Shown here in pieces: positions 8,896 through 58,626 of a stretch of DNA of 58,942 bases. Origin of the DNA: Campylobacteraceae bacterium. GTDB lineage: Bacteria > Campylobacterota > Campylobacteria > Campylobacterales > Sulfurovaceae. The stretch spans positions 1-58,942 of the forward strand of contig JALVXC010000036.1 of the NCBI GenBank assembly GCA_027038275.1. Direction: 5' to 3'. Position 1 is the stretch's first letter; the number at the start of each line of letters is the position of its first letter. Under the pieces are notes generated by a model. That model had not been told where the DNA came from and did not search any database. It saw only the letters and a program-made list of their open reading frames with translations. Made by a program: the position numbers and the translations under genes.

Positions 8896-11730
8896 TTATG
8901 CCTTTGTAATCTTAACAGCACACTTCTTGTAGTCTGTCTGTTTAGACATTGGACAAGTAGCATCAAGACATACTTTGTTAATAAATACTTTTTCATCAAA
9001 CCAAGGTACAAATACCAATCCTTGAGGTGGTCTGTTACGTCCACGTGTCTCAACTCTTGCTTTTACCTTACCACGACGAGACTCTACCCATACAAGCTCA
9101 CCACGTTTAACACCTTTAGCTTTTGCATCTTTAGGGTTCATGTAACATAACGCCTCTGGAACAGCACGGAAGAGTTCTGGTACTCTCATAGTCATTGTTC
9201 CTGAGTGCCAATGTTCAAGTACACGACCTGTACATAACCAAGTATCGTAGTTTTCATCTGGCATTTCTGGTGGATCCATATATGGTCTTGCAAAGATTTT
9301 TGCTTTATTTGGTAGAGCAAATTTACCAAGTTTTTTATCTGGACCTGTTAGTGTTCCTTGAAGAATATTTTTTGCTAATGGACCATAGAATGCGTGAGTT
9401 GATTTACTACCAGCTGCTTTTGCTGCTTTTGCTGCATAAGGGTCATACTTAACGTTAAATCTCCACTGTGTCTCTTTTCCATCAACAACTGGCCACTTAA
9501 GTCCTCTTACTTTATGGTAAACTTCAAATGGAGCTAAGTCGTGTCCATGTCCTCTACCAAATGAAGCGTACTCTTCAAAGAGATACTCATGAACCATAAA
9601 TCCATAACCTTTAAATACTTTTCCATCTCCACCTTTAACGTTTCTGCTATCTCCAATACATTCAGAGTTGTCAAAGCCTTTTTGTGGGAATTTATCTAGG
9701 TCTATTTTATACTCTTTGCCTTTATTAGCATAGAGAATTTCAAACATAGTAGTATCTTCTTTGTAACCCATTTTTTTAGCATCGGCAATTACATTTGGGA
9801 GTTTTTTACCATTTCTGAGTGTATATTCACCCCATAAGTCTTTAACTGTAAAGCGTTTAGAGAATTCCATCCACTGCCATGTATCACTCATTGCATCACC
9901 TACAGGTAATACTTGTTGTCTCCAGTGTTGTGTACGTCTCTCTGCATTTCCATAAGCTCCCCATTTTTCGTAAATCATTGCACTTGGAAGTACAAGGTCA
10001 GAAACCATTGCAGAGATTCCAGGGTAACCATCTGAAGTTACAATAAAGTTGTCCATCTCTCTTGCTGCTTTAATCCAATGTTTTGCACTAGCACTATCTT
10101 GGTAAGCATTACATACATTTACCCATGCAAACTTAACAACACCATCTTCAATATCTCTATGAATTTTCATAATATGTTGGTTACCTACAGGGTTAAGTGT
10201 ACCTGCTGGAAGTCCCCATACTTTTTCTGCTTTTGCTCTATGTTTAGGGTTTTTAACCATCATATCGGCAGGAAGTCTGTGACAGAATGTACCAACCTCT
10301 CTTGCTGTACCACATGCACTAGGTTGTCCTGTTAGAGAGAATGCTCCATTTCCAGGAAGAGCTTGTTTATTTAGTAAGAAGTGAACATTGTAAGAGAGTG
10401 TATTTACCCAAGTACCTCTTGTGTGTTGGTTCATACCCATTGTCCAGAAACTTACAACTTTTCTATCTTTTTCAATATATAAGTCTGCTAACATTTTAAG
10501 CTTTTTCTTAAAGCTGTCTATAGACTCATTTGGGTCACCTTTTGCAATTTTTGCAACATAGTCAAGTGTAAATGGCTCTAAAGATTTTTTATACTCTTCA
10601 AAAGAGATTTTCCAGTGTTTAAGTGTACCAGCTGTATTTTTCATGGTATCACCCTCTTTGTACCCATAAGGCTTAAGTGCAGGTGCTTCTTTTGCTGAAA
10701 CTTTTTTACTCATCTCTTTATTGATAGTTTGCATCTCTAATGCAGTGTATTTTCCTGCACTACCGTCAGCATTTACAGGAGTAATAGATTTTTCACCTGC
10801 TCTTCTCATACCATAACCAATGTTTACAGGACCAGCTGTAAATACAATATTCTCTTTTACAAAGTCCCAATCAATAGCTTCTGGGTGATTATATACAATC
10901 TCATGAGCAATATAGTTCCAAATTGCAAGGTCAGTACTTGGAGAGAAGATAATATTAAAGTCACCAAGGTCACAAGTTCTATGTGTATAGGTTTGAATAT
11001 TTACAACTTTTACCTTATCTGGGTTAGAGAGTTTTCTGTCTGTTACACGAGACCATAAAATAGGGTGCATCTCTGCCATATTTGAACCCCAAGTTACAAT
11101 GGTATCTGTAATCTCAATATCATCATAACATCCACTTGGTTCATCAATACCAAATGTTTGGTAGAAACCAACAACAGCACTTGCCATACAGTGACGAGCA
11201 TTTGGGTCAATAGCATTTGAACGGAATCCACCCTTCATCATCTTTTGAGCTGCATACCCTTCCATAACAGTATATTGACCAGAAGCAAATACAGCTACAC
11301 CTTCAGGTCCAGACTCTTTAAGTGCTTTTTTGGCATGTTTTTCCATCTCATCAAATGCTCTCTGCCAAGATACAGGTTTAAATTTACCATGCTTGTCAAA
11401 TTCACCTTTGTCATTCATACGAAGAAGAGGAGTTTTGAGTCGGTCTGCCCCATACATAATTTTTGCATTAAAGTACCCCTTAATACAGTTAAGTCCACGG
11501 TTAACAGGTGCTGCTGGGTCACCTTTTACTGCAACAATACGCCCCTCTTTTGTTGCTAACATAATACCACAACCAGTACCACAAAATCGACAAGCTGCCT
11601 TGTCCCAACGCCAATCAGATTCAGCCTCTTTTGCTTTTGCTTGAGCTTCTTGTGGAACAGAAATTCCCACAGCAGAAGCAGCAGCTACAGCAGCCGAGCT
11701 CTTTAAAAAATCTCTTCTGTTTAATGACAT
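8896..11730 (-). CDS. napA: NapA, periplasmic nitrate reductase catalytic subunit
   Basis: Reduces nitrate to nitrite in the periplasm with a bis-MGD molybdenum cofactor. The 944-residue protein has a Tat signal ([20 protein letters not shown]), a [4Fe-4S] site (Cys47, Cys50, Cys54, Cys82) and the Mo-ligand Cys181 in ARHCMASAV. The C-terminal cofactor-binding region is present ([16 protein letters not shown]). The epsilonproteobacterial NapA is typically about 920-950 residues, so this one is complete. A Shine-Dalgarno (AGGAG) precedes ATG. It is the first nap gene and has an FNR-type promoter in front. Electrons should come from menaquinol through NapGH and NapB. Confidence 0.98.
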
Positions 11731-11762: not shown

Positions 11763-11811
11763 GCTAGTAACTATATCACGTTTTAGAGAATGGTTTATTG
11801 ATGTAGGTCAA
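11763..11811 (-). promoter_or_regulatory. FNR-type class II promoter of the nap operon
   Basis: The box TTGAC-CTAC-ATCAA (minus strand, 11811-11798) differs from the FNR consensus TTGAT-N4-ATCAA by one base. A -10 hexamer TATAGT lies at 11775-11770. If the box is centred at -41.5 the hexamer falls exactly at -12 to -7 and transcription would start at 11763, leaving a 33-base leader before napA. This is the geometry of an oxygen-controlled class II activated promoter. The regulator is not encoded in this window. Confidence 0.7.
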
Positions 11812-20865: not shown

Positions 20866-21459
20866 TTATGAAACTGTAGCAACTTTGTCTATATTGTCAA
20901 AAATAGCCTTAACTCTCTCTTGCCAAAGCTCTCCAAACTCTTTTTTCTCTTCGCTAGAAGCGACTCCTTGCATAAGTTTACCCATAAGCTCTTGCATTTT
21001 TGGGTTGCCTCCAATACTACTTGGGTCATAGTTGACGGTTACACTTTTACCTGTGTCTAGTCGTTTAAACTCCATTTGAGCAGGAATATCTGCACCAAAC
21101 TCCATAAGGTTGTTTCTTGCAAATTTACCATTTAGCCCTTTAAAGCCTGAATGCTCTGTTGCTCCTGTAATCTGTGTAACTACATTAGCAATAACACCTG
21201 CAACACCCTCTAGTGGGTTACTTTTAAAACGTACATAGATATTACCTCTAATTGGAGTCTCATCTTGGTAGAGTGCCTCTAGGGCTTTTAGTGTACTAAT
21301 ATAAGCACCAGAGACAGTAGGGCAGGAGTGACCTGCTGATTTTACAATATCTAAGTAGCTAAACTCTACTATTCCATCTTCAAAAGTCCCTAAAAAATCA
21401 GAGAGTGGGTCTTGTAGTTTAATTGTTGGTGTGTTATCGAAAAAATTTGGGTATTTCAT
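20866..21459 (-). CDS. FmdE-like protein, second of a tandem pair
   Basis: A 197-residue soluble protein paralogous to the upstream gene. Both start with YPxFFxxxPTIKLQDPL and carry the motif AGHSCPxVxGAY. This matches the His-Cys metal-binding start of FmdE-family proteins (subunit E of formylmethanofuran dehydrogenase and relatives), although no other methanofuran-pathway gene is present. The real role in this group is unknown; a molybdenum or other metal-linked redox role is only suggested by the family name. It has no signal peptide. It follows the first copy by 9 bases and is probably in the same transcript. Confidence 0.7.
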   Translation of the reverse strand: MKYPNFFDNTPTIKLQDPLSDFLGTFEDGIVEFSYLDIVKSAGHSCPTVSGAYISTLKALEALYQDETPIRGNIYVRFKSNPLEGVAGVIANVVTQITGATEHSGFKGLNGKFARNNLMEFGADIPAQMEFKRLDTGKSVTVNYDPSSIGGNPKMQELMGKLMQGVASSEEKKEFGELWQERVKAIFDNIDKVATVS

Positions 21460-21468
21460 GGTTATCCT

Positions 21469-22074
21469 TTATAGTTCTATAATTTTAATGACATCAGCAG
21501 CATGATTAAAAATCTTCTCCACACGCTGTTGCCAAAGTACTTCAAACTCTATCTCTTCACTAGAAGTTGCCTCACCATTAAGAACTTTGCTCATAAGCAC
21601 ATCTTGTTTTGGGTCAATGGGAATAGAGTCTAAATCATATTGTGCAATAACCTCTTTTTGGTTATCGAGTCTTTTATATCGTATATCTCCTTTAAACTTC
21701 TCATTAAACTTTAATTTTTCAATACGACTAAATTTCCCCTCTACACCTCTAAATCCAAGTTGTAGAGTTGCTCCTGTAATATGGCTTGTAACATCTGCCA
21801 TAACAGAGGTAATATCATCTGTAAGGTCTTTGTTGAAGCTAACTTCAATCTCTCCCCTAACTGGAAGTTTATCTTTGTATAGTGCTTTTAAAGCTCGAAG
21901 AGTCATAAGGTAAGCCCCTGTTACGTCAGGACAGGAGTGACCTGCATTTTTAGTAATCTCTAAGTAGTTAAACTCTACAACTCCGTCTTGAAAAGTTCCT
22001 AAAAATTTTTGTAGTGGGTCTTGAAGCTTAATAGTGGGGCGTGTTTTAAAAAAGGTTGGGTAGTTAAGAATCAT
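21469..22074 (-). CDS. FmdE-like protein, first of a tandem pair
   Basis: A 201-residue paralogue of the next gene, with motif NAGHSCPDVTGAYLMTLRAL at about residues 40-59 and conserved KLPVRGEIEVSF. The overall identity between the two copies is moderate, so the duplication is old. The promoter shows an FNR box with ideal spacing to a perfect -10 (see entry), so the pair should be induced when oxygen is low, together with nap. Function is not established. Confidence 0.7.
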   Translation of the reverse strand: MILNYPTFFKTRPTIKLQDPLQKFLGTFQDGVVEFNYLEITKNAGHSCPDVTGAYLMTLRALKALYKDKLPVRGEIEVSFNKDLTDDITSVMADVTSHITGATLQLGFRGVEGKFSRIEKLKFNEKFKGDIRYKRLDNQKEVIAQYDLDSIPIDPKQDVLMSKVLNGEATSSEEIEFEVLWQQRVEKIFNHAADVIKIIEL

Positions 22075-22097
22075 TCTATTTCCTTAATAGAAGTAAA

Positions 22098-22146
22098 TTT
22101 GACGATTATAGTTTAAAATATAGTTTAAAATCTTGATTTGGGTCAA
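22098..22146 (-). promoter_or_regulatory. FNR-type class II promoter of the FmdE-like pair
   Basis: The box TTGAC-CCAA-ATCAA (minus strand, 22146-22133) has one mismatch to TTGAT-N4-ATCAA. A perfect TATAAT lies at 22110-22105, exactly at -12 to -7 if the box is centred at -41.5, with a predicted start at 22098. The geometry is identical to the napA promoter. Confidence 0.72.
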
Positions 22147-22219: not shown

Positions 22220-23155
22220 ATGAAAAACACCCCACACATACCCGTACTACTAAACGAAGTCCTAGATGGATTTTCCAATATAAAAGAGGGTTATTTTGTA
22301 GATTGTACGCTTGGGTATGCAGGTCATAGTGAAGCGATGTTAGAGCGTTATAGTCATATAAAACATATTGGTATAGACAGAGATGATGAGGCTTTGGCTT
22401 TCTCTAAAGCAAGATTAGAGCCATTTAAAGAGCGTTCTACACTCTATAAGGGAACATTTGCAAATACTCTACCAACTCTTAAAGAGTCACCTATTACAGG
22501 TCTGTTAGCAGACTTTGGGGTTTCATCTTTGCAACTAGACAAGATGGAGCGTGGTTTTTCGTTTGAGAGTGAAACTTTAGATATGCGAATGGACTCAACA
22601 GCCAAGCTTTCAGCCTATGAGGTGGTCAATGAGTACCCACAAGATAAGCTAGAGTATATCTTAAACCACTATGGAGAGGTTAGAAACTATAAAAAGGTTG
22701 CCTCTGCTATTGTTCAGGCAAGAACTAAAGAGCTTATTAAGAGTGGTAAAGAGCTTTCAGATATTATCTGCTCTGTTACTCCTCGTGGTGGAAAGATACA
22801 CCCTGCAACTCTTGCTTTTCAAGCTATTCGTATAGAGGTCAACAACGAACTAGGGGAGATAGAGGCTCTTTTAGATGTGCTTGAAGAGAAGTTTAAAGAG
22901 GGTGAATTGAGTGAAGCAATTATCTCTTTGATTACTTTTCACTCTTTAGAGGACAGATTGGTAAAGAGTCGTTTTAAAAAGTGGGCAACCAAATGTATAT
23001 GTGACCCACAAGCTATGCGTTGTAGTTGTGGAAAAAACCATGAATTGGGTAAGATGTTGACACGAAAACCGATAGTTGCAACCAAAGAGGAGCTAAAAGT
23101 AAATGCTCGGTCGCGTTCGGCTAAGCTTAGGGTGTTTGTATTTAAAAAAGAGTAA
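22220..23155 (+). CDS. rsmH: 16S rRNA (cytosine1402-N4)-methyltransferase RsmH
   Basis: Methylates N4 of C1402 in the decoding centre of 16S rRNA. At 311 residues it has normal length, with the family start HIPVLLNEVL, SAM-binding FVDCTLGYAGHSEAML and LADFGVSSLQLD. Further signatures are RGFSFESETLDMRMD, HPATLAFQAIRIEVN and ISLITFHSLEDRLVK. The Cys cluster near the C-terminus (CICDPQAMRCSCGK) is common in this group. In many bacteria it starts the division/cell-wall cluster, but here it stands alone. Confidence 0.97.
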   Translation: MKNTPHIPVLLNEVLDGFSNIKEGYFVDCTLGYAGHSEAMLERYSHIKHIGIDRDDEALAFSKARLEPFKERSTLYKGTFANTLPTLKESPITGLLADFGVSSLQLDKMERGFSFESETLDMRMDSTAKLSAYEVVNEYPQDKLEYILNHYGEVRNYKKVASAIVQARTKELIKSGKELSDIICSVTPRGGKIHPATLAFQAIRIEVNNELGEIEALLDVLEEKFKEGELSEAIISLITFHSLEDRLVKSRFKKWATKCICDPQAMRCSCGKNHELGKMLTRKPIVATKEELKVNARSRSAKLRVFVFKKE

Positions 23156-46590: not shown

Positions 46591-48540
46591 TTGATATTAG
46601 ATTTAGTAATAGATAGATTAAAAAAACATATAGACAGTACACCCGATAAAGTAATTTTTAGATATATAGAGAATGATTCAGATAGACCAAAGATAGTAAC
46701 TTTTAAAGAGTTGGATTATGAGGCAAAAAAAGTAGCTTCTATGCTTCAAGAAAAGTATAATAAAGGGGATAGAGCATTACTACTTTATCCCGCAGGGTTA
46801 GATTTTATATATGCATTTTTGGGTTGTTTGTATGCAGGGGTTGTTGCCGTACCTGCCTATCCACCTAGAAAAAATCAAAAGATAGATAGACTAAGAAATA
46901 TTGTAGAAGATTGTGATGCAAAGGTTATATTGACAACAGACCAAATCTATAAAATCTCAAAAGATATATTTGAAAAAGATGAATTGTTCTCAAATATATC
47001 TTTAGTATCTACCGAGACTATAGAAGAGAATAGACCATTTAATGAAGTTTTAGTAGATAATGAAGATTTAGCTTTTTTACAATACACATCAGGCTCAACT
47101 GGAAATCCTAAAGGAGTAATGGTAAGCCATGCCAATATCTCCTCTAATTTAGAAGTTATAAAAGAGTTTGTAGAGTGTGACAAAAATTCAATCGGTACAA
47201 GTTGGTTACCACATTTTCATGATATGGGGCTTATTGGTGGGGTGCTTTTACCTATGTATGTAGGTTTTGAAATAATATTGATGTCACCTTTGTATTTTTT
47301 GCAAAAACCTATTCGTTGGTTGAAGGTCATAAGTGACTATCGAGTCAATATTACAACTGGGCCAAACTTTGCTTATGAGTTGTGTATCAATAATATAAAA
47401 GATGAAGAGTTAAAAGATATAGATTTAAGTTCATTGCACTCTATGTTAAATGGTGCAGAACCTATCTATGCAGATACGCTAAGGAGATTTACCCAAAAAT
47501 TTACAAAGTATGGATTTGATAAAAAAGCTCATTGCCCATGTTATGGTATGGCAGAGACTACGCTTATTGTTACTGGTATACCTAGAGAAAGAGAATATAG
47601 AGTAATTTCAGTTGATAGTAAGGCTTTGAAAAACAATCAAGTAGTCTTAAAAGAGAGAGACAAAGGCTCTCAGGAGTTAGTCTCTTGTGGTGTAACTCGT
47701 TTGGGTCATGAGGTTGCAATTGTAGATAGCAATATGAAACTCTTAGATGAAAATATGGTTGGAGAGGTTTGTGTTAGAGGTGCAAGTGTAACTAAAGGAT
47801 ATTGGAGAAATAGTAGTAAAACTAGAGATGATTTTCATAATTATCTAAAAGAGAGTAAAGAACCATATCTTAAGACAGGAGATTTGGGATTTTTATATGA
47901 TAATGAGTTGTATATTTGTGGAAGAAAAAAAGCTATGATGGTTATTAGAGGAAAAAACTACTATCCACACGATATTGAACTAAGTACATACTCTTCTCAT
48001 GAGGCTTTAGTAAATATGGGAACAGCAATTTTTAGTATAGAAAAAAATGGTTTGGAGAGAGTTGTTGTTGTTCAAGAGGTAAAACGAACATATATACGCA
48101 AATTAAATCCAACAGAAGTTTTTAAGGCAATCCAAGAGGCAATTTATATTAATCATGAGATACAAGCGTATGATATAGTTCTGATTAGACCGGGACAACT
48201 AAAAAAGACATCTAGTGGTAAGATTCAACGATATAACAACAAAGAGGCTTATCTTGAAAATAGTTTTTCTAGTTTATATCAATATTTAGATGTGGAATCT
48301 TTAGAAAAAGAAAATGAGTATTTAGCTCCAAGAAATGAGACAGAAGAGAGATTAGCTAAGATATTCCAAGAGGTATTGAGTATAGATAAAGTAAGTATCA
48401 ATGATAACTTCTTTGAGTTAGGAGGGCATTCCCTACTTGCTATGCAGTTAGTATCGAGAGTTAGAAGTGAATTAGAGATAGAGTTACCACTAAAAGAGCT
48501 GTTTGGAATGCCTACTGTAGAGGCTCTTTCTCTCTATCTA
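46591..48540 (+). other. NRPS loading module: fatty-acyl-AMP ligase + carrier domain
   Basis: Residues about 1-570 are a FAAL-type adenylating domain, seen from AVPAYPPRKNQKIDRL, YTSGSTGNPKG (165-175), SWLPHFHDMGLIGG and the C-terminal GRKKAMMVIRGKNYYPHDIE. FAALs activate a medium- or long-chain fatty acid and hand it to a carrier domain (LGGHS, Ser614) instead of to coenzyme A. It sets the lipid tail of the product; chain length cannot be read. Confidence 0.9.
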
Positions 48541-51500
48541 CAGACTCACGGAGAAGAGAGTAGCTTAACTAAAATACCATTACAACAAAACAGAGATAAT
48601 CTAAAACTCTCTTATGCTCAAGAGCGATTATGGTTTTTGGATAAGTTTGAAGGGGGGAAAAGTACAACCTATCATTTATCGGCAGTATTAACGCTAGAGG
48701 GCGAATTAAATAGAGAAGCGTTTAATAGAGCATTGAAAACTATAGTAAATAGACATGAAGCACTACGAACAAACTTTATAGAGAGAGATAGAGAAACTTT
48801 ACAGATTATAAGAGAAGCAGATAGATTTAGAGTCGTAGAGATAGAGTCTAATGAGAGTCGTATAGACAAAGAGATAAAAGAGATACTATCTCAACCATTT
48901 AACCTAGAGAGTGATATGCTTTTTAAAGCAGTTCTTTTTGTTATCAATAGCGATAAACACTATCTTTTGGTAAATATGCACCATATTATATCTGATGGGT
49001 GGTCTATTGGGGTATTAGTAAAAGAGTTTACAGCACTATATAGTGCTTATAGTAGTAATCAACCCAATCCACTACCACCACTAGAGATACAATATGCAGA
49101 TTATGCTGTATGGCAAAAGGAGTATTTGCAAGGTGAACTACTAGATGTAAAACTAAATTATTGGAGAGAGACATTAGGAGCAGTAGAGCCATTAGCTTTA
49201 CCGACTACTTATCCAAGACCTGCTATACAGAGTAATAGAGGAAACCTTATAAAATTTAATATTGATAAAGAGGTAACTAAAAAATTAAATGATTTAAGTA
49301 AAAAATATGATGTAACACTCTTTATGACACTACTTAGTAGTTTTGGACTACTGTTGCATAGATATAGTGGGCAAGAGGAGTTTGTAATAGGCTCTCCTAT
49401 AGCCAATAGAAACCGTGCAGAGATAGAGCCTTTGATAGGATTTTTTGTAAATACCTTGCCACTCAAACAGAAGTTTAGTTCCGATATGAGTTTTAATACA
49501 CTATTGCAACAGATAAAAGAGTATACACTAAGTGCTTATGAGTATCAAGATGTTCCATTTGAAAAGATAGTTGATTCAGTAGATATTCCAAGAGATACCT
49601 CTCGTTCACCACTCTTTCAAGTTATGTTTGCATTGCAGAATAATCCTGATAGTATGGTTCTCGAATTAGATAAGCTAAAGATTGAGAGTGTAGAGTTAGA
49701 AAATACTACTTCTAAGTTTGACTTGACAATGGATATTACAGAGGTAGATGAGATACTTCAATGTTCGCTAGAGTATGCAACAGACCTCTTTAGTCAAGAG
49801 TATATAAAATCTATGATTGAACATTTTAAAGTTCTCTTGAAAGCTATAGTAAAAGATGATACTCAATCCATATCTAAATATCCACTCCTAACAAAACAAG
49901 AGGAGCAACAACTTCTTGTTGAGTATAATAATACAAAAGTAGAGTACCCAAAAGACAAAACCATACATCAACTCTTTGAAGAGCAAGTAGAGTTAAACCC
50001 AAATAGTATAGCAGTAGTTTATAAAGATAATGAGTTAACCTACCAAGAACTCAATACCAAATCTAACCAATTAGCACACTATCTTATAGCCCAAGGAGTA
50101 GAACCTGATACTCTAGTAGCAATCTGTGTAGATAGGTCACTAGATATGATAGTAGGACTCTTAGCCATACTTAAAGCAGGAGGGGCTTATGTGCCTATAG
50201 ACCCTACTTATCCTAAAGATAGAGTAAAGCACATGTTAGATGATAGCAATGCAAAACTACTACTTACACAAGCAGATTTAGAAGAGTCTCTTCCTGTAAC
50301 TAATAGTAAAACTATTGCTATAGACAGACTTGATACAACTAAAGAGAAGAGTACCAATCCTAAAACAGAAGTAACCTCAAATAATCTTGCTTATGTTATT
50401 TATACTTCGGGTTCAACAGGATTACCTAAAGGGGTAATGGTTGAGCATAGAGGGGTTATAAACTTAGTGGAGTGGCACAAAGATAAGTTTAAAATCTCTC
50501 AAAATTCCAACGCTACACAAGTTGCTAGTATGGCATTTGATGCTTCAGTTTGGGAGATATTTCCATATCTTTTAAATTCAGCTAAATTGGTAATTTTACC
50601 CAAAACGGTTATCTTAAATATAGAACTCTTTTTAAAAGAGTTATTGACAAAAGAGATAACACACGCTTTTGTTCCAACGGCATTAGCTCAACAGTTTTTG
50701 GAAAAAGAGGATTTAGATAGATTAAATTTAAAATATATATTTGTAGGTGGAGAAAAATTAGATAGTTTCAAGCATAATAAAAAATATTTAGTAAGTAATA
50801 ACTATGGGCCTACAGAGTGTACGGTTGTATCTCTCTCTTGTATCTTAGAATCTAACTCTTCTACACCTCCAATAGGTCGCCCAATTAATAATACTCAACT
50901 CTATATCTTAGATGAAGAGCAAAATCTAGTACCCAAAGGAGTAGTAGGAGAGTTATATATAGCAGGAGATGGATTAGCAAGAGGCTATCTAAACCAACCA
51001 GAACTAACCAAAGAGAAGTTTATAGAGAATCCATTTAACAAGGGAACTAGACTATATAAAACGGGAGATTTGGTTAGATACTTAGAAGATGGAAATATAG
51101 AGTATATATCAAGAGTAGATGACCAAGTACAAATAAGAGGATTTCGAGTAGAACTTGGAGAGATAGAAGAGCAACTCCTAAAGATAGAAGCGATAAAAGA
51201 GAGTGTAGTCTTAGTAAAAGAGGATAAGAATAGAAATAGGTCTTTGGTAGCGTATATTACAACCAAAGATAATCAAGAGATAGATAGTGATATAAAAAAT
51301 AGACTCTCTCACTATTTGCCAGAGTATATGATTCCAGTAGCCTATAAAACTATAGACTCTATGCCTCTAACCCCAAATGGTAAAGTAGATAAAAGAGCAT
51401 TAGCTAAACTAGAGGTCAATATAGAATCGACTACAGAGTATATAGCCCCAAGAGATGAGATAGAGGAGAAACTAGCTAAAATCTTCCAAGAGGTATTAAA

Positions 51501-54500
51501 TATAGAGAGAGTAGGAATCTATGATAACTTCTTTGAATTAGGAGGACATTCACTACTTGCTACTCAGTTAGTATCGAGAGTTAGAAGTGAATTAGGGGTA
51601 GAGTTACCACTAAAAGAGTTGTTTGCAATGCCTACTGTAGAGGCTCTATCTATTTATATACAAAATTATGGAAAAGAGAGTAGTTTAAATAAAATACCAT
51701 TACAACAAGATAGAGATAACCTAAAACTCTCTTATGCACAAGAACGACTTTGGTTTTTAGATAAGTTTGAAGGTGGCAATAGCACAACCTATCATATACC
51801 AGCAGTTCTAAAATTGGAGGGTAAATTAAATAAAAAAGCCCTCAATAGTGCATTAAGAACTATAGTAAATAGACATGAAGCACTAAGAACAAATTTTATA
51901 GAAAAAGATAATCAAACTCTACAGATTATAAGAGAAGCAGATAGATTTAGAGTAGAAGAGATAAAATCTAAAGAGGATAGTATAGAAGCAGAGATAAAAG
52001 AGATACTATCTCAACCCTTTAACCTAGAGAGTGATATGCTCTTTAAAGCCGTTCTCTTTACTATCAATAGCGATAAATACTACCTTTTAGTAAATATGCA
52101 CCATATTATATCTGATGGGTGGTCTATAGGGGTGCTAGTAAAAGAGTTTATAGCACTCTATAACGCTTATAGTCATAATAGAGAAAATCCACTACCACCA
52201 TTAGAGATACAATATGCAGATTATGCTGTATGGCAAAAAGAGTATCTACGAGGTGAAGTATTAGATGAGAAATTAAATTATTGGAAAGAGAGACTACAAG
52301 GGATAGAATCATTAGCCCTGCCAACTACCTATCCACGACCTGCCATACAGAGCAATAGAGGAAAACATATAAACTTTACTATTGATAAAGAGATAACTAA
52401 AAAGTTAAATAGCTTAAGTAAAACAAATGATGTTACACTCTTTATGACACTACTAAGTAGTTTTGGATTATTGATGTATAAGTATAGTGGGCAAGAGGAG
52501 TTTGTAATAGGCTCTCCTATAGCCAATAGAAATCGTGCAGAGATAGAGCCTCTAATAGGGTTCTTTGTAAATACCTTGGCATTTAAACAAGATTTTAGTT
52601 CAGATATAAAATTTAGCACTCTACTACAACAGACAAAAGAGCATACACTAAGTGCTTATGAACACCAAGATGTTCCATTTGAAAAGTTGGTTGATGTACT
52701 AGATATACCAAGAGATACTTCTCGTTCACCACTCTTTCAAGTTATGTTTGCATTACAGAATAATCCTGAGAGTATAGTGCTTGAATTAGATAAGCTAAAA
52801 ATAGAAACAGTAGAGATTGAAAATGCTACCTCTAAATTTGACCTGACAATGGATATTACAGAAGAAAATGGAATGCTTCAAGGTTCATTAGAGTATGCAA
52901 CAGACCTATTTAGTCAAGAGTATATGGAATCTATGGTTGAACACTACAAGATTCTTTTGGAAGCCATAGTAGAAGATGAGACACAACCAATATCAAAATA
53001 TCCTATTTTAACCAAACAAGAAGAGCAACAACTTCTTATAGAGTACAATAACACAAAAGCAGAGTATCCAAAAGACAAAACCATACATCAACTCTTTGAA
53101 GAGCAAGTAATGCTTAATCCTGATAATATAGCCGTGGTCTATGAAGATGAAGAGTTAACCTACCAAGAGCTAAATATCAAATCAAACCAATTAGCACACT
53201 ACCTTATAGCCCAAGGTGTAGAGCCTGATACTTTGGTAGCAATCTGTGTAGATAGGTCATTAGATATGATAGTAGGACTCTTAGCTATTCTAAAAGCAGG
53301 AGGGGCTTATGTGCCAATAGACCCTACCTATCCTAAAGATAGAATAAAATATATATTAGATGATACTCAAGCAAAATTGTTACTTACTCAATCTCACTTG
53401 GAAGATAGATTTCCTAAAGCTATTGCTATAGATACTCTCGATATAACAAAAGAGAAGAGTAACAATCCTAAAACAGAAGTAGACTCAAATAATCTTGCTT
53501 ATGTAATCTATACTTCGGGTTCTACAGGGTTGCCTAAAGGGGTAATGGTTGAGCATGGTGGAGTTGTAAATTTAGTAAGCAATGAAATAGAGTTATTTGA
53601 TATAACAACTCAATCTATTATGTTACAGTTTTTTTCTTATGGATTTGACTTTTCTGTATCGGAAATCTTTAATGCTTTGTGTAGTGGTATAAAACTAGCT
53701 ATACCTACAAATGAGCAAAGAATGCCAAGTAGATTAGAGTTTTATATTGAAAAATTAAATGTAACACATGCGTTTATCCCTCCTATAGTATTAGCAGAGT
53801 TAAAAAATAGTGATAGATTAAACTCTCTACAACTTATTAATGTGGGTGGTGATATTTGTCCGTTATCTGTTGCAAATAGATGGTATAAGAGAGTAAAATT
53901 TTTCAACACTTATGGGCCTACTGAAGCTACAGTTGATGCATCTTATTTTCTATATAATGATGAGGTTTTGGGAAATTCTCTACCAATTGGTCGTCCTATT
54001 AACAATACCCAACTATATATCTTAGACAGACACCTAAACCTAGTACCAAAAGGGGTAATAGGAGAGTTACATATAGCAGGAGATGGATTAGCAAGAGGTT
54101 ATCTAAACCAACCAGAACTTACAAAAGAGAAGTTTATGGATAATCCATTTAACAAAGGAGAAAAACTCTATAAAACAGGTGATTTAGTAAGATACTTAGA
54201 AGATGGAAATATAGAGTATATCTCACGAATAGATGACCAAGTCAAGATAAGAGGATTTAGAATAGAGTTAGGAGAGATAGAGGAACAACTCCTAAATATA
54301 GATGAGATAAAAGAGAGTGTAGTATTAGCCAAAGAAGATAAAAATGGCAATAAGTCATTAGTAGCCTATATTACCACCGAAGAGAATAAAGAGCTAGATA
54401 GTAGCAGTATTAAAAATAGACTCTCTAAATATCTACCAGAGTATATGATACCAGTAGCCTATAAAACTATAGAGTCAATGCCCCTAACACCAAATGGCAA

Positions 54501-57500
54501 AGTAGACAAAAAAGCATTGGCTAAACTAGATGTCAATATAGAATCGACTAAAGAGTATGTAGCCCCTAGAGATGAGATAGAGGAGAAATTAGTTCAAATA
54601 TTCCAAGAGGTATTAAATGTAGAGAGAGTAGGAATCTATGATAACTTTTTTGAGTTAGGAGGACATTCACTATTGGTTATTGAGCTTATTAATCGCCTAA
54701 ATAAGCTAGGATTAGATATTTCTATACAAGATGTATTTGCTTCTCAAAAATTGGTAGATATGGCTACTCTATTGCAAAAGCATAAAAAAACTACTCTATC
54801 TATACCTGACAATCTAATTCCTAAAAATTGTAACTATATTACCCCTGATATGCTTCCTCTACTCTCAATCTCTCAAAATGAGATAGATAAAATCGTAAAA
54901 TCATCTGTAGGAGGAGTAGAGAATATCCAAGATATTTATCCTCTCTCTTCACTACAAGAGGGTATGCTTTTTCACCATCTCCTAAATAGTGAATTTGATG
55001 TATATATAACCCCAGTACTACTTACTTTTCAAAATATAAATAGTATCAATAGTATTATTGAGGCTTTACAATATGTAATAGATAGACATGATGTAATGAG
55101 AACCTCTATACATAGTGAGGGGCTAGAAAAGGCTGTTCAAGTTGTTCACAAAAGAGTAAAACTAAAACCAAAAGAGATAAAAGCATCAGCCAACGAGAGT
55201 ATAAAAGATAAAATGTTAGAGAGAATGCAACCACATAATCTATATATGCCTCTAACAGTTGCTCCTCTGCTAGATGTAGAGTATGGATATGACCAAGAAA
55301 ACAATCAATACTATGTTTTATTTAAATCACATCATATTATAAGTGACCATATCTCAATAGAGATATTGGTTCAAGAGATTATTTCATACCTAAACAAAAA
55401 GACAAATGAGCTACCAAAGCCATTGCCATATCGTAACTTTATCTATTACACTCTACATAAATACGACAAGAAAAAAGCAGAATCTTTCTTTTTGGAAAAA
55501 TTATCAGATGTAGATGAACCAACGCTACCATTTGGACTACTGAATACTAAAATGGATGGAGATAATATTTTAGAAGATGAGTCTATGATTCCATTAGAGT
55601 TATCTCAACAGATTCGCTCAATCTGTTTTGATTTAAAAGTCACTCCAGCCTCATTTTTTCATCTAGCTTTTGCTATAGTTTTAGCCCAATGTAGTAGTAG
55701 AGATGATGTAGTTTTTGGTACTCTTCTATCAGGTAGATTTCAAGAAGATATAACTATTGACAATATGATGGGTATGTTTCTAAATACGCTTCCTATTCGT
55801 ATAACTCTTACAGAAAAATCTATAGAGGCACTTCTTGTAGAGACGCAAAAGTATCTATTTGATTTAATTAATTATGAGCAGACACCATTAGTAACTGCTC
55901 AAAAATGCAGTGCAGTATCTAGTGATATTCCACTCTTTAGTGCTATTTTAAATTATAGACAGAGTAGACAAAATGATAATAATTTAGATATAAACAGTGA
56001 TATTGAGATGGTATTAAGCCAAGAGAGAGCTAACTATCCATTTACAATTAGTATTGATGATTTTGGTGATGATTTTGGAATAACAACACAAGTAGACTCT
56101 TCTATAAATGCCAAACAGATTACACAATATATGTTGACCATTTCCAATAAAATAGTCCAACTATTGCAAAATCAACCAACCAAAGATATTACAGATATTT
56201 CAATCTTGCCACCACAAGAGAAGCAACAACTTCTTATAGAGTACAATGATACAAAAGCAGAGTACCCCAAAGAGAAAACCATACACCAACAATTCCAAGA
56301 GCAAGTAGAACACAATCCAAATAACATAGCAGTAGTCTACGAAGATAAAGAGTTAACCTATAGAGAACTAAATACTAAATCAAACCAATTAGCACACTAT
56401 CTTATAACACAGGGTGTAGAACCCGATACTCTAGTAGCAATATGTGTAGATAGGTCACTAGATATGATAATAGGACTCCTAGCTATACTTAAAGCAGGAG
56501 GGGCTTATGTGCCAATAGACCCTACTTACCCTAAAGATAGAGTAAAACATATGTTAGATGATAGCAATGCAAAACTATTACTTACTCAATCACACCTAAA
56601 AGATACTCTTCCTCAAACCAATAGTAGAGTTATTGCTATAGATACTCTTGATATAACCAATAAAAAAACTACCAATCCAAAAACAGAAGTAACCTCTAGT
56701 AACCTTGCTTATGTTATCTATACTTCAGGCTCTACAGGATTGCCTAAAGGGGTGATGGTTGAACATAGTGGAGTTATAAATTTAATAGAGTGGCATAAAA
56801 ACAGGTTTAAAGTCTCTAAAGATTCCAAAGCCACACAAGTGGCTAGTATGGCATTTGATGCATCAGTTTGGGAGATATTTTCATACATTCTAAATTCAGC
56901 TAAATTGGTAATTTTACCAAAAAGAGTAATCTTAAATATTGAACTATTTTTAAAACAGCTATTAGCAGAAGAGATAACACACGCCTTTGTTCCAACTGCA
57001 TTAGCTCAACAGTTTTTAGAAAAAGAGGATTCAGATAGATTAAATCTCAAATATATGTTTGTAGGTGGAGAAAAATTAGATAGCTACAAATACGATAAAA
57101 AATATTTAGTAGTCAACTGTTATGGGCCTACAGAGTCTACTGTTATATCTCTATCATCTATCTTAAACTCCAAATCCTCTACACCTCCAATTGGTCGCCC
57201 CATCAATAACACCCAAATCTACATCTTAGACAAACACCAAAATCTAGTCCCCAAAGGAGTAGTAGGAGAGTTACACATAGCAGGAGATGGATTAGCAAGA
57301 GGCTATCTAAACCAACCAAAACTCACAAAAGAGAAGTTTATAGAGAATCCATTTAAAAAAGGTGAAAGACTTTATAAGACAGGCGATTTAGTAAGATACC
57401 TAGAAGATGGAAATATAGAGTATGTAGGAAGAGTAGATGACCAAGTAAAAATAAGAGGCTTTAGAATAGAGCTAGGAGAGATAGAGCAACAACTCCTAAA

Positions 57501-58626
57501 TATAGATGAGATAAAAGAGAGTGTAGTCTTAGCCAAAGAGGATAAAAATAGAAATAAATTTTTAGTAGCCTACATTACAACCAAAGATAATCAAGAGCTA
57601 GATAGTAACATAAAAAATAGACTTTCTCATTATTTGCCAGAGTATATGATACCAGTAGCCTATAAAACTATAGACTCTATGCCACTAACTCCAAATGGCA
57701 AAATAGACAAAAAGGCATTAGCTAAAATAGATGTCAATATAGAATCAAACAGAGAGTATGTAGCCCCAAGAGATGAGACAGAAGAGAAACTAGCTAAAAT
57801 CTTCCAAGAGGTATTAAATATAGAAAAAATAGGAATACATGATAACTTCTTTGAGTTAGGAGGACACTCACTACTAGCTACACAACTGCTATTAAAAATT
57901 AGAACTACCTTGCAGACTGAAATAGCTCTTCACTCTATATTTATAAATCCAACAATAGTAGGAATCAGTAGTTATATAAAAGAGAATAACTATAAACAAA
58001 GTTTAGTCCCCTTACAAAAAAATGGAGACAAAACACCAATCTTTGCAGTTCATGGCTTAGGAGGAAATGCACAACAGTTCAAACAACTCTCCAATATCTT
58101 AGGAGAAGAACAACCAATGTACGCATTTCAAGATATAGCTCTAACCGAAGAGGAGGTATCTTATACAAGCGTACAAGATATAGCACAACAATATATATTT
58201 ATGCTCAAATCTGTAGCTCCAAAAGAGCCATATAAATTGGTAGGACACTCTATTGGAGGTTTAATTGCTTATGAGATGGCATCTATTTTAGAAAAAGAGG
58301 GTAAAGAGGTTGAGTCTCTTACCTTGTTAGATTGTTATATGCCTCAATTATTAGATTTTGAGACTATAGATAATCAAGCAAAAGAGTTAATAGATAGTCT
58401 GAATCTATCTTATGATAATTACTTAAAACTTCAAGAGGTATACAGAGACTATAAACTCCCTTCACGTAGATTGAGAACTAATATATCTTTATATATTGCT
58501 TCTGAAAACTCTAAGAAAGAGGAGAATAGTAAATTATGGAAAAAAGTAAATAGCAATATAACTATTAAAGAGCTTAAAGAAGACCATTTTAGCATATTAT
58601 CTAATGAAACTCTTAAAGAGATATAA
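46591..58626 (+). CDS. Nonribosomal peptide synthetase with fatty-acyl-AMP ligase starter (FAAL-T/C-A-T/C-A-T/C-A-T-TE)
   Basis: A single 4011-residue assembly line predicted to make a fatty-acylated tripeptide. The start is TTG, chosen because an AGGAG site lies 7 bases before it and the FAAL domain begins right there. Carrier serines lie in LGGHS at residues 614, 1654, 2693 and 3760. Condensation motifs are HHIISDG at 797 and 1837; the third C domain has HHLLNSEFD at 2795 and HHIISDH at 2914. Adenylation motifs YTSGSTGLPKG begin at residues 1271, 2307 and 3377. The type I thioesterase has GHSIGG with Ser3887, and probable Asp and His partners in LLDCY and EDHFSIL. The upstream phosphopantetheinyl transferase should activate it. 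No transporter or regulator is within the window. Sub-domains are listed separately. Confidence 0.95.
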   Translation: MILDLVIDRLKKHIDSTPDKVIFRYIENDSDRPKIVTFKELDYEAKKVASMLQEKYNKGDRALLLYPAGLDFIYAFLGCLYAGVVAVPAYPPRKNQKIDRLRNIVEDCDAKVILTTDQIYKISKDIFEKDELFSNISLVSTETIEENRPFNEVLVDNEDLAFLQYTSGSTGNPKGVMVSHANISSNLEVIKEFVECDKNSIGTSWLPHFHDMGLIGGVLLPMYVGFEIILMSPLYFLQKPIRWLKVISDYRVNITTGPNFAYELCINNIKDEELKDIDLSSLHSMLNGAEPIYADTLRRFTQKFTKYGFDKKAHCPCYGMAETTLIVTGIPREREYRVISVDSKALKNNQVVLKERDKGSQELVSCGVTRLGHEVAIVDSNMKLLDENMVGEVCVRGASVTKGYWRNSSKTRDDFHNYLKESKEPYLKTGDLGFLYDNELYICGRKKAMMVIRGKNYYPHDIELSTYSSHEALVNMGTAIFSIEKNGLERVVVVQEVKRTYIRKLNPTEVFKAIQEAIYINHEIQAYDIVLIRPGQLKKTSSGKIQRYNNKEAYLENSFSSLYQYLDVESLEKENEYLAPRNETEERLAKIFQEVLSIDKVSINDNFFELGGHSLLAMQLVSRVRSELEIELPLKELFGMPTVEALSLYLQTHGEESSLTKIPLQQNRDNLKLSYAQERLWFLDKFEGGKSTTYHLSAVLTLEGELNREAFNRALKTIVNRHEALRTNFIERDRETLQIIREADRFRVVEIESNESRIDKEIKEILSQPFNLESDMLFKAVLFVINSDKHYLLVNMHHIISDGWSIGVLVKEFTALYSAYSSNQPNPLPPLEIQYADYAVWQKEYLQGELLDVKLNYWRETLGAVEPLALPTTYPRPAIQSNRGNLIKFNIDKEVTKKLNDLSKKYDVTLFMTLLSSFGLLLHRYSGQEEFVIGSPIANRNRAEIEPLIGFFVNTLPLKQKFSSDMSFNTLLQQIKEYTLSAYEYQDVPFEKIVDSVDIPRDTSRSPLFQVMFALQNNPDSMVLELDKLKIESVELENTTSKFDLTMDITEVDEILQCSLEYATDLFSQEYIKSMIEHFKVLLKAIVKDDTQSISKYPLLTKQEEQQLLVEYNNTKVEYPKDKTIHQLFEEQVELNPNSIAVVYKDNELTYQELNTKSNQLAHYLIAQGVEPDTLVAICVDRSLDMIVGLLAILKAGGAYVPIDPTYPKDRVKHMLDDSNAKLLLTQADLEESLPVTNSKTIAIDRLDTTKEKSTNPKTEVTSNNLAYVIYTSGSTGLPKGVMVEHRGVINLVEWHKDKFKISQNSNATQVASMAFDASVWEIFPYLLNSAKLVILPKTVILNIELFLKELLTKEITHAFVPTALAQQFLEKEDLDRLNLKYIFVGGEKLDSFKHNKKYLVSNNYGPTECTVVSLSCILESNSSTPPIGRPINNTQLYILDEEQNLVPKGVVGELYIAGDGLARGYLNQPELTKEKFIENPFNKGTRLYKTGDLVRYLEDGNIEYISRVDDQVQIRGFRVELGEIEEQLLKIEAIKESVVLVKEDKNRNRSLVAYITTKDNQEIDSDIKNRLSHYLPEYMIPVAYKTIDSMPLTPNGKVDKRALAKLEVNIESTTEYIAPRDEIEEKLAKIFQEVLNIERVGIYDNFFELGGHSLLATQLVSRVRSELGVELPLKELFAMPTVEALSIYIQNYGKESSLNKIPLQQDRDNLKLSYAQERLWFLDKFEGGNSTTYHIPAVLKLEGKLNKKALNSALRTIVNRHEALRTNFIEKDNQTLQIIREADRFRVEEIKSKEDSIEAEIKEILSQPFNLESDMLFKAVLFTINSDKYYLLVNMHHIISDGWSIGVLVKEFIALYNAYSHNRENPLPPLEIQYADYAVWQKEYLRGEVLDEKLNYWKERLQGIESLALPTTYPRPAIQSNRGKHINFTIDKEITKKLNSLSKTNDVTLFMTLLSSFGLLMYKYSGQEEFVIGSPIANRNRAEIEPLIGFFVNTLAFKQDFSSDIKFSTLLQQTKEHTLSAYEHQDVPFEKLVDVLDIPRDTSRSPLFQVMFALQNNPESIVLELDKLKIETVEIENATSKFDLTMDITEENGMLQGSLEYATDLFSQEYMESMVEHYKILLEAIVEDETQPISKYPILTKQEEQQLLIEYNNTKAEYPKDKTIHQLFEEQVMLNPDNIAVVYEDEELTYQELNIKSNQLAHYLIAQGVEPDTLVAICVDRSLDMIVGLLAILKAGGAYVPIDPTYPKDRIKYILDDTQAKLLLTQSHLEDRFPKAIAIDTLDITKEKSNNPKTEVDSNNLAYVIYTSGSTGLPKGVMVEHGGVVNLVSNEIELFDITTQSIMLQFFSYGFDFSVSEIFNALCSGIKLAIPTNEQRMPSRLEFYIEKLNVTHAFIPPIVLAELKNSDRLNSLQLINVGGDICPLSVANRWYKRVKFFNTYGPTEATVDASYFLYNDEVLGNSLPIGRPINNTQLYILDRHLNLVPKGVIGELHIAGDGLARGYLNQPELTKEKFMDNPFNKGEKLYKTGDLVRYLEDGNIEYISRIDDQVKIRGFRIELGEIEEQLLNIDEIKESVVLAKEDKNGNKSLVAYITTEENKELDSSSIKNRLSKYLPEYMIPVAYKTIESMPLTPNGKVDKKALAKLDVNIESTKEYVAPRDEIEEKLVQIFQEVLNVERVGIYDNFFELGGHSLLVIELINRLNKLGLDISIQDVFASQKLVDMATLLQKHKKTTLSIPDNLIPKNCNYITPDMLPLLSISQNEIDKIVKSSVGGVENIQDIYPLSSLQEGMLFHHLLNSEFDVYITPVLLTFQNINSINSIIEALQYVIDRHDVMRTSIHSEGLEKAVQVVHKRVKLKPKEIKASANESIKDKMLERMQPHNLYMPLTVAPLLDVEYGYDQENNQYYVLFKSHHIISDHISIEILVQEIISYLNKKTNELPKPLPYRNFIYYTLHKYDKKKAESFFLEKLSDVDEPTLPFGLLNTKMDGDNILEDESMIPLELSQQIRSICFDLKVTPASFFHLAFAIVLAQCSSRDDVVFGTLLSGRFQEDITIDNMMGMFLNTLPIRITLTEKSIEALLVETQKYLFDLINYEQTPLVTAQKCSAVSSDIPLFSAILNYRQSRQNDNNLDINSDIEMVLSQERANYPFTISIDDFGDDFGITTQVDSSINAKQITQYMLTISNKIVQLLQNQPTKDITDISILPPQEKQQLLIEYNDTKAEYPKEKTIHQQFQEQVEHNPNNIAVVYEDKELTYRELNTKSNQLAHYLITQGVEPDTLVAICVDRSLDMIIGLLAILKAGGAYVPIDPTYPKDRVKHMLDDSNAKLLLTQSHLKDTLPQTNSRVIAIDTLDITNKKTTNPKTEVTSSNLAYVIYTSGSTGLPKGVMVEHSGVINLIEWHKNRFKVSKDSKATQVASMAFDASVWEIFSYILNSAKLVILPKRVILNIELFLKQLLAEEITHAFVPTALAQQFLEKEDSDRLNLKYMFVGGEKLDSYKYDKKYLVVNCYGPTESTVISLSSILNSKSSTPPIGRPINNTQIYILDKHQNLVPKGVVGELHIAGDGLARGYLNQPKLTKEKFIENPFKKGERLYKTGDLVRYLEDGNIEYVGRVDDQVKIRGFRIELGEIEQQLLNIDEIKESVVLAKEDKNRNKFLVAYITTKDNQELDSNIKNRLSHYLPEYMIPVAYKTIDSMPLTPNGKIDKKALAKIDVNIESNREYVAPRDETEEKLAKIFQEVLNIEKIGIHDNFFELGGHSLLATQLLLKIRTTLQTEIALHSIFINPTIVGISSYIKENNYKQSLVPLQKNGDKTPIFAVHGLGGNAQQFKQLSNILGEEQPMYAFQDIALTEEEVSYTSVQDIAQQYIFMLKSVAPKEPYKLVGHSIGGLIAYEMASILEKEGKEVESLTLLDCYMPQLLDFETIDNQAKELIDSLNLSYDNYLKLQEVYRDYKLPSRRLRTNISLYIASENSKKEENSKLWKKVNSNITIKELKEDHFSILSNETLKEI
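48583..51660 (+). other. NRPS module 1: C-A-T, predicted leucine
   Basis: The C domain (start LSYAQERLWFLDKF, active site HHIISDG) would join the fatty acid to the first amino acid. Aligning the A domain with GrsA gives pocket residues D-A-W-F-F-G-N-V-V-K, one change from the published leucine code DAWFLGNVVK. The carrier serine is residue 1654. Confidence 0.7.
51688..54790 (+). other. NRPS module 2: C-A-T, amino acid not predictable
   Basis: The C domain is very similar to that of module 1 (HHIISDG at 1837). The A domain differs strongly (QFFSYGFDFSVSEIF region); my hand alignment gives pocket residues D-F-S-F-N-G-T-V-D-K, which fits no code I know. The carrier serine is residue 2693. This module ends with the linker PKNCNYITPDMLPL. 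Confidence 0.65.
54820..58000 (+). other. NRPS module 3: atypical C, A-T, predicted leucine
   Basis: The C domain starts QDIYPLSSLQEGMLFHHLLNS and belongs to another subtype than the first two. The elongated first His motif (HHLLNSEFD, compare HHI/LxxxxGD) is a mark of dual epimerisation/condensation domains, but G is F here; the second motif is HHIISDH, with H for G. The A-domain pocket D-A-W-F-F-G-C-V-I-K is again leucine-like. The carrier serine is residue 3760. Confidence 0.6.
58010..58626 (+). other. NRPS terminal type I thioesterase domain
   Basis: An alpha/beta hydrolase of about 200 residues: FAVHGLGGNAQQF (oxyanion loop), GHSIGGLIAYEM (Ser3887), LLDCYMP (acid) and EDHFSIL (His). It releases the acyl-peptide by hydrolysis or cyclisation. 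Without a side-chain nucleophile known in the peptide, a linear acid is the simpler expectation. Confidence 0.85.

Follow-up and report, generated by a model that had tools for sequence, protein, structure and literature searches.

A predicted class II Crp/Fnr-type promoter, probably read by an Nss/DNR-like regulator, places an FmdE-like gene pair with denitrification and nitric oxide genes in Sulfurovaceae

The window, i.e., the whole 58,942-nt stretch of DNA analysed here (Campylobacteraceae bacterium, family Sulfurovaceae, contig JALVXC010000036.1), harbors a tandem pair of FmdE-like genes that are 49% identical, separated by a 9-nt gap and probably co-transcribed, and, at some distance on the same strand, the gene for the periplasmic nitrate reductase. 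The features relevant to the two promoters are as follows.

8896-11730, minus strand: napA, periplasmic nitrate reductase (TIGR01706, 1341 bits)
11770-11775, minus strand: -10 hexamer of napA, TATAGT, spaced as at the FmdE-like pair
11798-11811, minus strand: box TTGACCTACATCAA upstream of napA, in the layout seen at the FmdE-like pair
20866-21459, minus strand: FmdE-like gene 2, 197 aa, tandem paralogue (PF02663, 26.6 bits, cut-off 22.9)
21469-22074, minus strand: FmdE-like gene 1, 201 aa (PF02663, 26.8 bits, cut-off 22.9)
22081-22085, minus strand: AAGGA, read from the sequence as the ribosome-binding site ahead of FmdE-like gene 1
22098, minus strand: predicted transcription start with a 24-nt leader, placed from the -10 position
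22105-22110, minus strand: -10 hexamer TATAAT, at -12 to -7 relative to the predicted start, with a spacing that is enriched genome-wide
22133-22146, minus strand: Crp/Fnr-type (Nss/DNR-like) box TTGACCCAAATCAA, centred at the predicted -41.5 and conserved upstream of orthologues
22220-23155, plus strand: rsmH (MraW methylase), divergent, with no -10 at class II spacing on its side and a box that is not tied to it in relatives

The window also carries a nonribosomal peptide synthetase of 4011 aa (46591-58626, plus strand) with four AMP-binding, three condensation and four carrier domains and a thioesterase, a gene that seems unusual for a Campylobacterota genome.

The box at the FmdE-like pair has the form TTGAC-N4-ATCAA, and its layout relative to the predicted start is that of a class II Crp/Fnr-type promoter, i.e., a palindrome at about -41.5 and a -10 hexamer at -12 to -7. 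Re-reading the sequence confirmed the textbook class II arrangement that a preliminary description of this DNA had reported here, as well as its observation that the napA promoter (TATAGT) shares the half-sites and the spacing, the gap between box and hexamer being 22 nt at both. Its statement that the layout is confined to these two places in the window also agrees with our count of exactly two matches to TTGAY-N4-RTCAA. Taken alone, however, two boxes per window are weakly unusual and not significant (2 found against 0.47 expected, with at least two in 8 of 100 shuffles), and a degenerate scan of the window allowing two mismatches was uninformative (58 matches, 66 expected). The significance of the FmdE and napA promoters thus lies in the spacing between box and -10, not in the boxes alone. 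Judged by its sequence, the promoter of the FmdE-like pair appears to be an ordinary case of a known promoter type.

The genome-wide scan for TTGAY-N4-RTCAA plus a -10, proposed in the same description, bore out this spacing. Across the genome of the window (188 contigs, 97% complete) we tallied only boxes with the TTGAY/RTCAA core, which gave 38, 12 of them intergenic and 26 intragenic, and the surrounding DNA was examined for all. A hexamer matching TATAAT in at least five of six positions, at the exact class II offset and in at least one direction, accompanied 11 of the 12 intergenic boxes and none of the 26 intragenic ones (Fisher p = 1e-8), while no other offset between -15 and +15 exceeded three in either class. 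The 11 promoters, each a class II box with a -10, stand at the following places.

before napA
before the FmdE-like pair
before a 115-aa gene followed by norC and norB
before nosZ
before a fused siroheme decarboxylase gene (AhbA/AhbB), divergent from a 189-aa gene
before a divergent pair of small genes
before a 138-aa gene
before a multihaem cytochrome gene
before sufB, in the SUF iron-sulfur assembly operon, with TATAAC as -10 (L024, C15:65777)
before a short-chain dehydrogenase gene followed by an AraC-type regulator gene, with TATAAT as -10 (L022, C6:64623)
before a hemerythrin-DUF2249-membrane protein operon (C172), unlinked from fmdE

Judging from these genes, the set would be a denitrification and nitric oxide (NO) regulon. 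The box before sufB suggests NO-linked control of Fe-S biogenesis, and the promoter of the short-chain dehydrogenase and AraC-type regulator genes is an unexpected member.

Of 150 genomes of the family, 111 have an FmdE-like gene. When TTGA-N6-TCAA with a -10 (at least 5/6) at an offset within 2 of the class II position was sought upstream of these genes, 55 of 85 loci had it, 48 at the exact class II position, whereas the controls for these loci gave 0 in reversed sequences and 0.065 in shuffles. A second set of 83 loci, in which five loci were added and more distant paralogues left out, gave 57 loci with box and -10, spread over 9 of the 11 genera of the family, and some of the remaining loci have the box with one mismatch; the comparison of orthologues that the preliminary description had called for thus upheld the box. 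In most box-bearing loci it starts 62-80 nt before the ATG. FmdE copies immediately behind another gene lack it (0/11); in some loci where the gene is operon-internal the box is found at the operon head (L104, L106), and in some clusters it precedes a cytochrome or globin gene instead of fmdE. Counted per ORF, the box promoter lies at 54 of 88 FmdE ORFs as against 13 of 298 other ORFs in the same loci, and several of these 13 share the FmdE intergenic region or are globin or cytochrome genes of the same clusters. Because relatives differ in the gene upstream of a boxed fmdE (rsmH, napA, a ferredoxin-like or a hemerythrin-PAS gene, or yet another), it is fmdE, and not rsmH, that the box accompanies. 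The link between box and fmdE weakens beyond Sulfurovaceae: in Sulfurimonas and Arcobacter the FmdE homologues follow housekeeping genes or are part of housekeeping operons and have no box, and the box is present at 15 of the best 80 named hits, most of these 15 being family genomes. A candidate variant box about 200 nt before Sulfurimonas homologues (TTGCxCAAAATCAA with TAGAAT) was rejected, as xseA precedes the gene and the motif was read as xseA coding sequence. Taken together, the genome-wide spacing statistics, the conservation among orthologues and the operon neighbors described below make the regulon membership of the FmdE-like pair a well-supported prediction.

The gene order fmdE-hemerythrin-DUF2249-membrane protein recurs in more than 30 loci, usually behind the box, and in the source genome the hemerythrin-DUF2249-membrane protein operon lies apart from fmdE, yet carries the same box. 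Other settings bring fmdE together with a globin, an HPP membrane protein, a cytochrome c and a Crp/Fnr gene, and some loci pair it with a PF01883 Fe-S assembly protein. In six loci fmdE is divergent from napA, and in others it adjoins napFLD or napAGH. Pfam, NCBIfam and PDB sequence searches gave no name to the membrane partner; its predicted fold alone did (pLDDT 77.6), matching the large subunits of cbb3 oxidase and NO reductase with Z 30-31, although only two to four of its histidines are conserved. This partner (424 aa, L045:1182-2456, minus strand) has homologues in about 47 family loci. A 113-aa protein (L064:2162-2503, plus strand, and similar loci) adjoins fmdE and the haem-copper-fold gene and has a weak DUF2249 match (E 0.012). 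Of the genomes at least 90% complete, 53 have nirS or norC, and every one of these also has an FmdE-like gene (p = 1e-9, a value that ignores shared ancestry), as do 62 of 65 near-complete napA genomes, a count that likewise ignores shared ancestry. FmdE is also retained in nine near-complete genomes that have no nap, nir, nor or nos, and in eight of the nine it lies beside a hemerythrin or globin (among these eight neighbors one hemerythrin was identified by eye, and two globins were deduced from an ORF call with a frame shift). DUF2249 proteins of haloarchaea are induced under denitrification (PMC11218638), and the core of NO regulons includes dnrN and nnrS (PMC1274295). The usual partners, i.e., hemerythrin, DUF2249, globin and haem-copper-fold proteins, thus point to NO handling, and the FmdE-like genes probably belong to the NO-coping machinery of the cell.

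The predicted structure of FmdE-like gene 1 (pLDDT 95.7, pTM 0.92) matches the fold of 3D00 (Z 11.3), 2GLZ (11.1) and 2GVI (10.7), the next match being at 5.0, whereas a PDB sequence search with the FmdE alignment profile found no chain even at E 10. Invariant residues in the FmdE alignment include D19, H46, S47, C48, R73, G101, G107, F108, G110 and Q182, and H46 and C48, which lie within a GHSCP motif, could be metal ligands. FmdE-like proteins are widespread. Literature searches, on the family by name as well as on FmdE in connection with heme, NO or denitrification, turned up nothing on a bacterial function, and as far as this literature shows the proteins are uncharacterised in bacteria.

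FNR holds a [4Fe-4S] centre in an N-terminal cysteine cluster, and nitrate, NO or N2O are the signals of Nss/DNR-type regulators. The genome yielded five Crp/Fnr proteins, with cysteines at positions 16, 102, 112, 238 and 241 in one, 102 and 153 in another, none in a third, and 44 and 78, and 96, in the remaining two; the N-terminal cluster of FNR is absent from all five. Two of them have an E..SR recognition helix (ETFSRIL and ETLSRIL) and reach 25-32 bits with the Fnr model (cut-off 228); one is encoded about 3.8 kb from norC, and the gene of the second diverges from one that was judged hemerythrin-like by eye. According to a review, Campylobacterota encode no FNR orthologue, and Wolinella succinogenes responds to nitrate, NO and N2O through NssA, NssB and NssC (PMC6682613). 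In Nitrosophilus labii (Campylobacterota), TTGA-N6-TCAA starts 48-49 nt before the transcription starts of napA, norE and nosB (PMC11539149), the same box-to-start distance as at the FmdE-like pair, and Pseudomonas DNR binds the same TTGA-N6-TCAA motif (PMC1274295). Owing to the missing FNR cysteines, the E..SR helices, the low Fnr scores and this literature, the reader of the box is most likely an Nss/DNR-type regulator rather than the oxygen sensor FNR. The preliminary description had spoken of an FNR promoter and a low-oxygen nitrate-respiration regulon: its label of FNR is not supported, given the same cysteines, scores and review, and while membership in the regulon stands on spacing, conservation and operons, the low-oxygen part probably does not hold, as nitrate, NO and N2O, rather than oxygen itself, are the expected signals. 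We consider it very unlikely that a true oxygen-sensing FNR activates the pair within such a low-oxygen regulon, even though the box fits the FNR consensus and is common to napA, and N-oxide respiration and oxygen limitation go together in nature, and in a genome that is 97% complete a missed FNR is possible but improbable.

Another explanation assigns the FmdE-like protein to the molybdenum enzyme NapA, as a factor in cofactor supply or maturation, and holds that its NO-operon neighbors merely share the signal. The loci where fmdE is divergent from napA or adjoins other nap genes, its presence in nearly all near-complete napA genomes, and the naming of the family after the operon of a molybdenum enzyme (Pfam description) speak for it, but the protein is retained, mostly beside a hemerythrin or globin, in the nine genomes devoid of nap, nir, nor and nos, and it occurs in all nirS or norC genomes while missing from three near-complete napA genomes. 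We thus regard this explanation as unlikely, if far from negligible, and the operon partners, the box, the co-occurrence and the fold favour NO handling or repair of NO damage over a role limited to NapA. That the box serves the divergent rsmH, the FmdE side being incidental, is hardly credible: a symmetric palindrome does lie between both start codons, but a -10 at class II spacing is found on the FmdE side only, and in relatives the box stays with FmdE despite its changing neighbor. Chance occurrence in an AT-rich genome could account for two boxes in one window, as the shuffles illustrate, but the spacing statistic and the conservation upstream of orthologues contradict it so strongly that we give it practically no weight.

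We therefore return to the Nss/DNR-read class II promoter, and postulate, with a probability of about 0.62 for the reading as a whole, that it places the pair in an NO and denitrification regulon and that the protein counters NO damage. The box at -41.5 would replace the -35 element, and an Nss/DNR-type Crp/Fnr protein bound to it would turn on the FmdE-like pair together with the nap, nor, nos, siroheme decarboxylase, suf and hemerythrin-DUF2249 operons, in response to nitrate or to the products of its reduction, chiefly NO. The FmdE-like protein would be cytoplasmic and of FmdE fold, its invariant His-x-Cys site probably binding a metal or a metal cofactor, and it most likely acts with the hemerythrin, the DUF2249 protein and the partner of haem-copper-oxidase fold to limit or repair NO damage to metal centres. 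The box and its spacing, the regulon, the conservation, the operon links and the fold were computed, and from them we infer the identity of the regulator, the signal, the metal binding and the role. The preliminary description had offered regulon membership as a first clue to the role, and a clue it is, but nitrate respiration is too broad a frame, given partners (hemerythrin, DUF2249, globin, haem-copper-fold proteins) that point to NO handling. More tentatively, and at somewhat less than even odds, the fmdE-hemerythrin-DUF2249-haem-copper-fold operons may form an unrecognised module of Campylobacterota for NO defence or for the repair of metal centres, and the role of the FmdE fold in it would be unrelated to formylmethanofuran dehydrogenase.

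What appears new is that in Sulfurovaceae an FmdE-fold protein belongs, as a conserved member, to the NO/denitrification regulon and also to an NO-type operon, of which we found no description in the literature searched. For an abundant group of vents and sediments, the protein's place in this regulon and its recurring partners provide a testable role, and the regulon map is a contribution to denitrification control in Campylobacterota, a phylum with poorly known regulation.

Compared with known systems, the FmdE-like protein shares with the FmdE family (PF02663; 3D00, 2GLZ and 2GVI) a Pfam score above the cut-off and the fold (Z 10.7-11.3), but it is only 13-14% identical to these structures, and no link to formylmethanofuran dehydrogenase was seen beside the gene. 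With the NO-response genes dnrN/ytfE (hemerythrin type), nnrS and those for DUF2249 proteins, the likeness is that fmdE has a hemerythrin, a DUF2249 protein and a protein of haem-copper fold in its operon and behind its box, although the fmdE-linked hemerythrin scores far below the cut-offs of RIC/DnrN, and the membrane partner, with its two to four conserved histidines, has no Pfam match to NnrS or COX1. E. coli-type FNR class II promoters have the same box consensus, -41.5 position and sigma70-type -10, but the Crp/Fnr proteins found in this genome all lack the N-terminal cysteine cluster of FNR. The FmdE-like genes are not described, in the literature found, as members of the Nss regulon of W. 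succinogenes and N. labii or of the DNR/NnrR regulons of Proteobacteria; in other respects the likeness to these regulons is close, i.e., TTGA-N6-TCAA about 48 nt before the start of transcription, nap, nor and nos among the targets, and Crp/Fnr regulators without FNR cysteines, with an E..SR helix and with a gene near the nor cluster.
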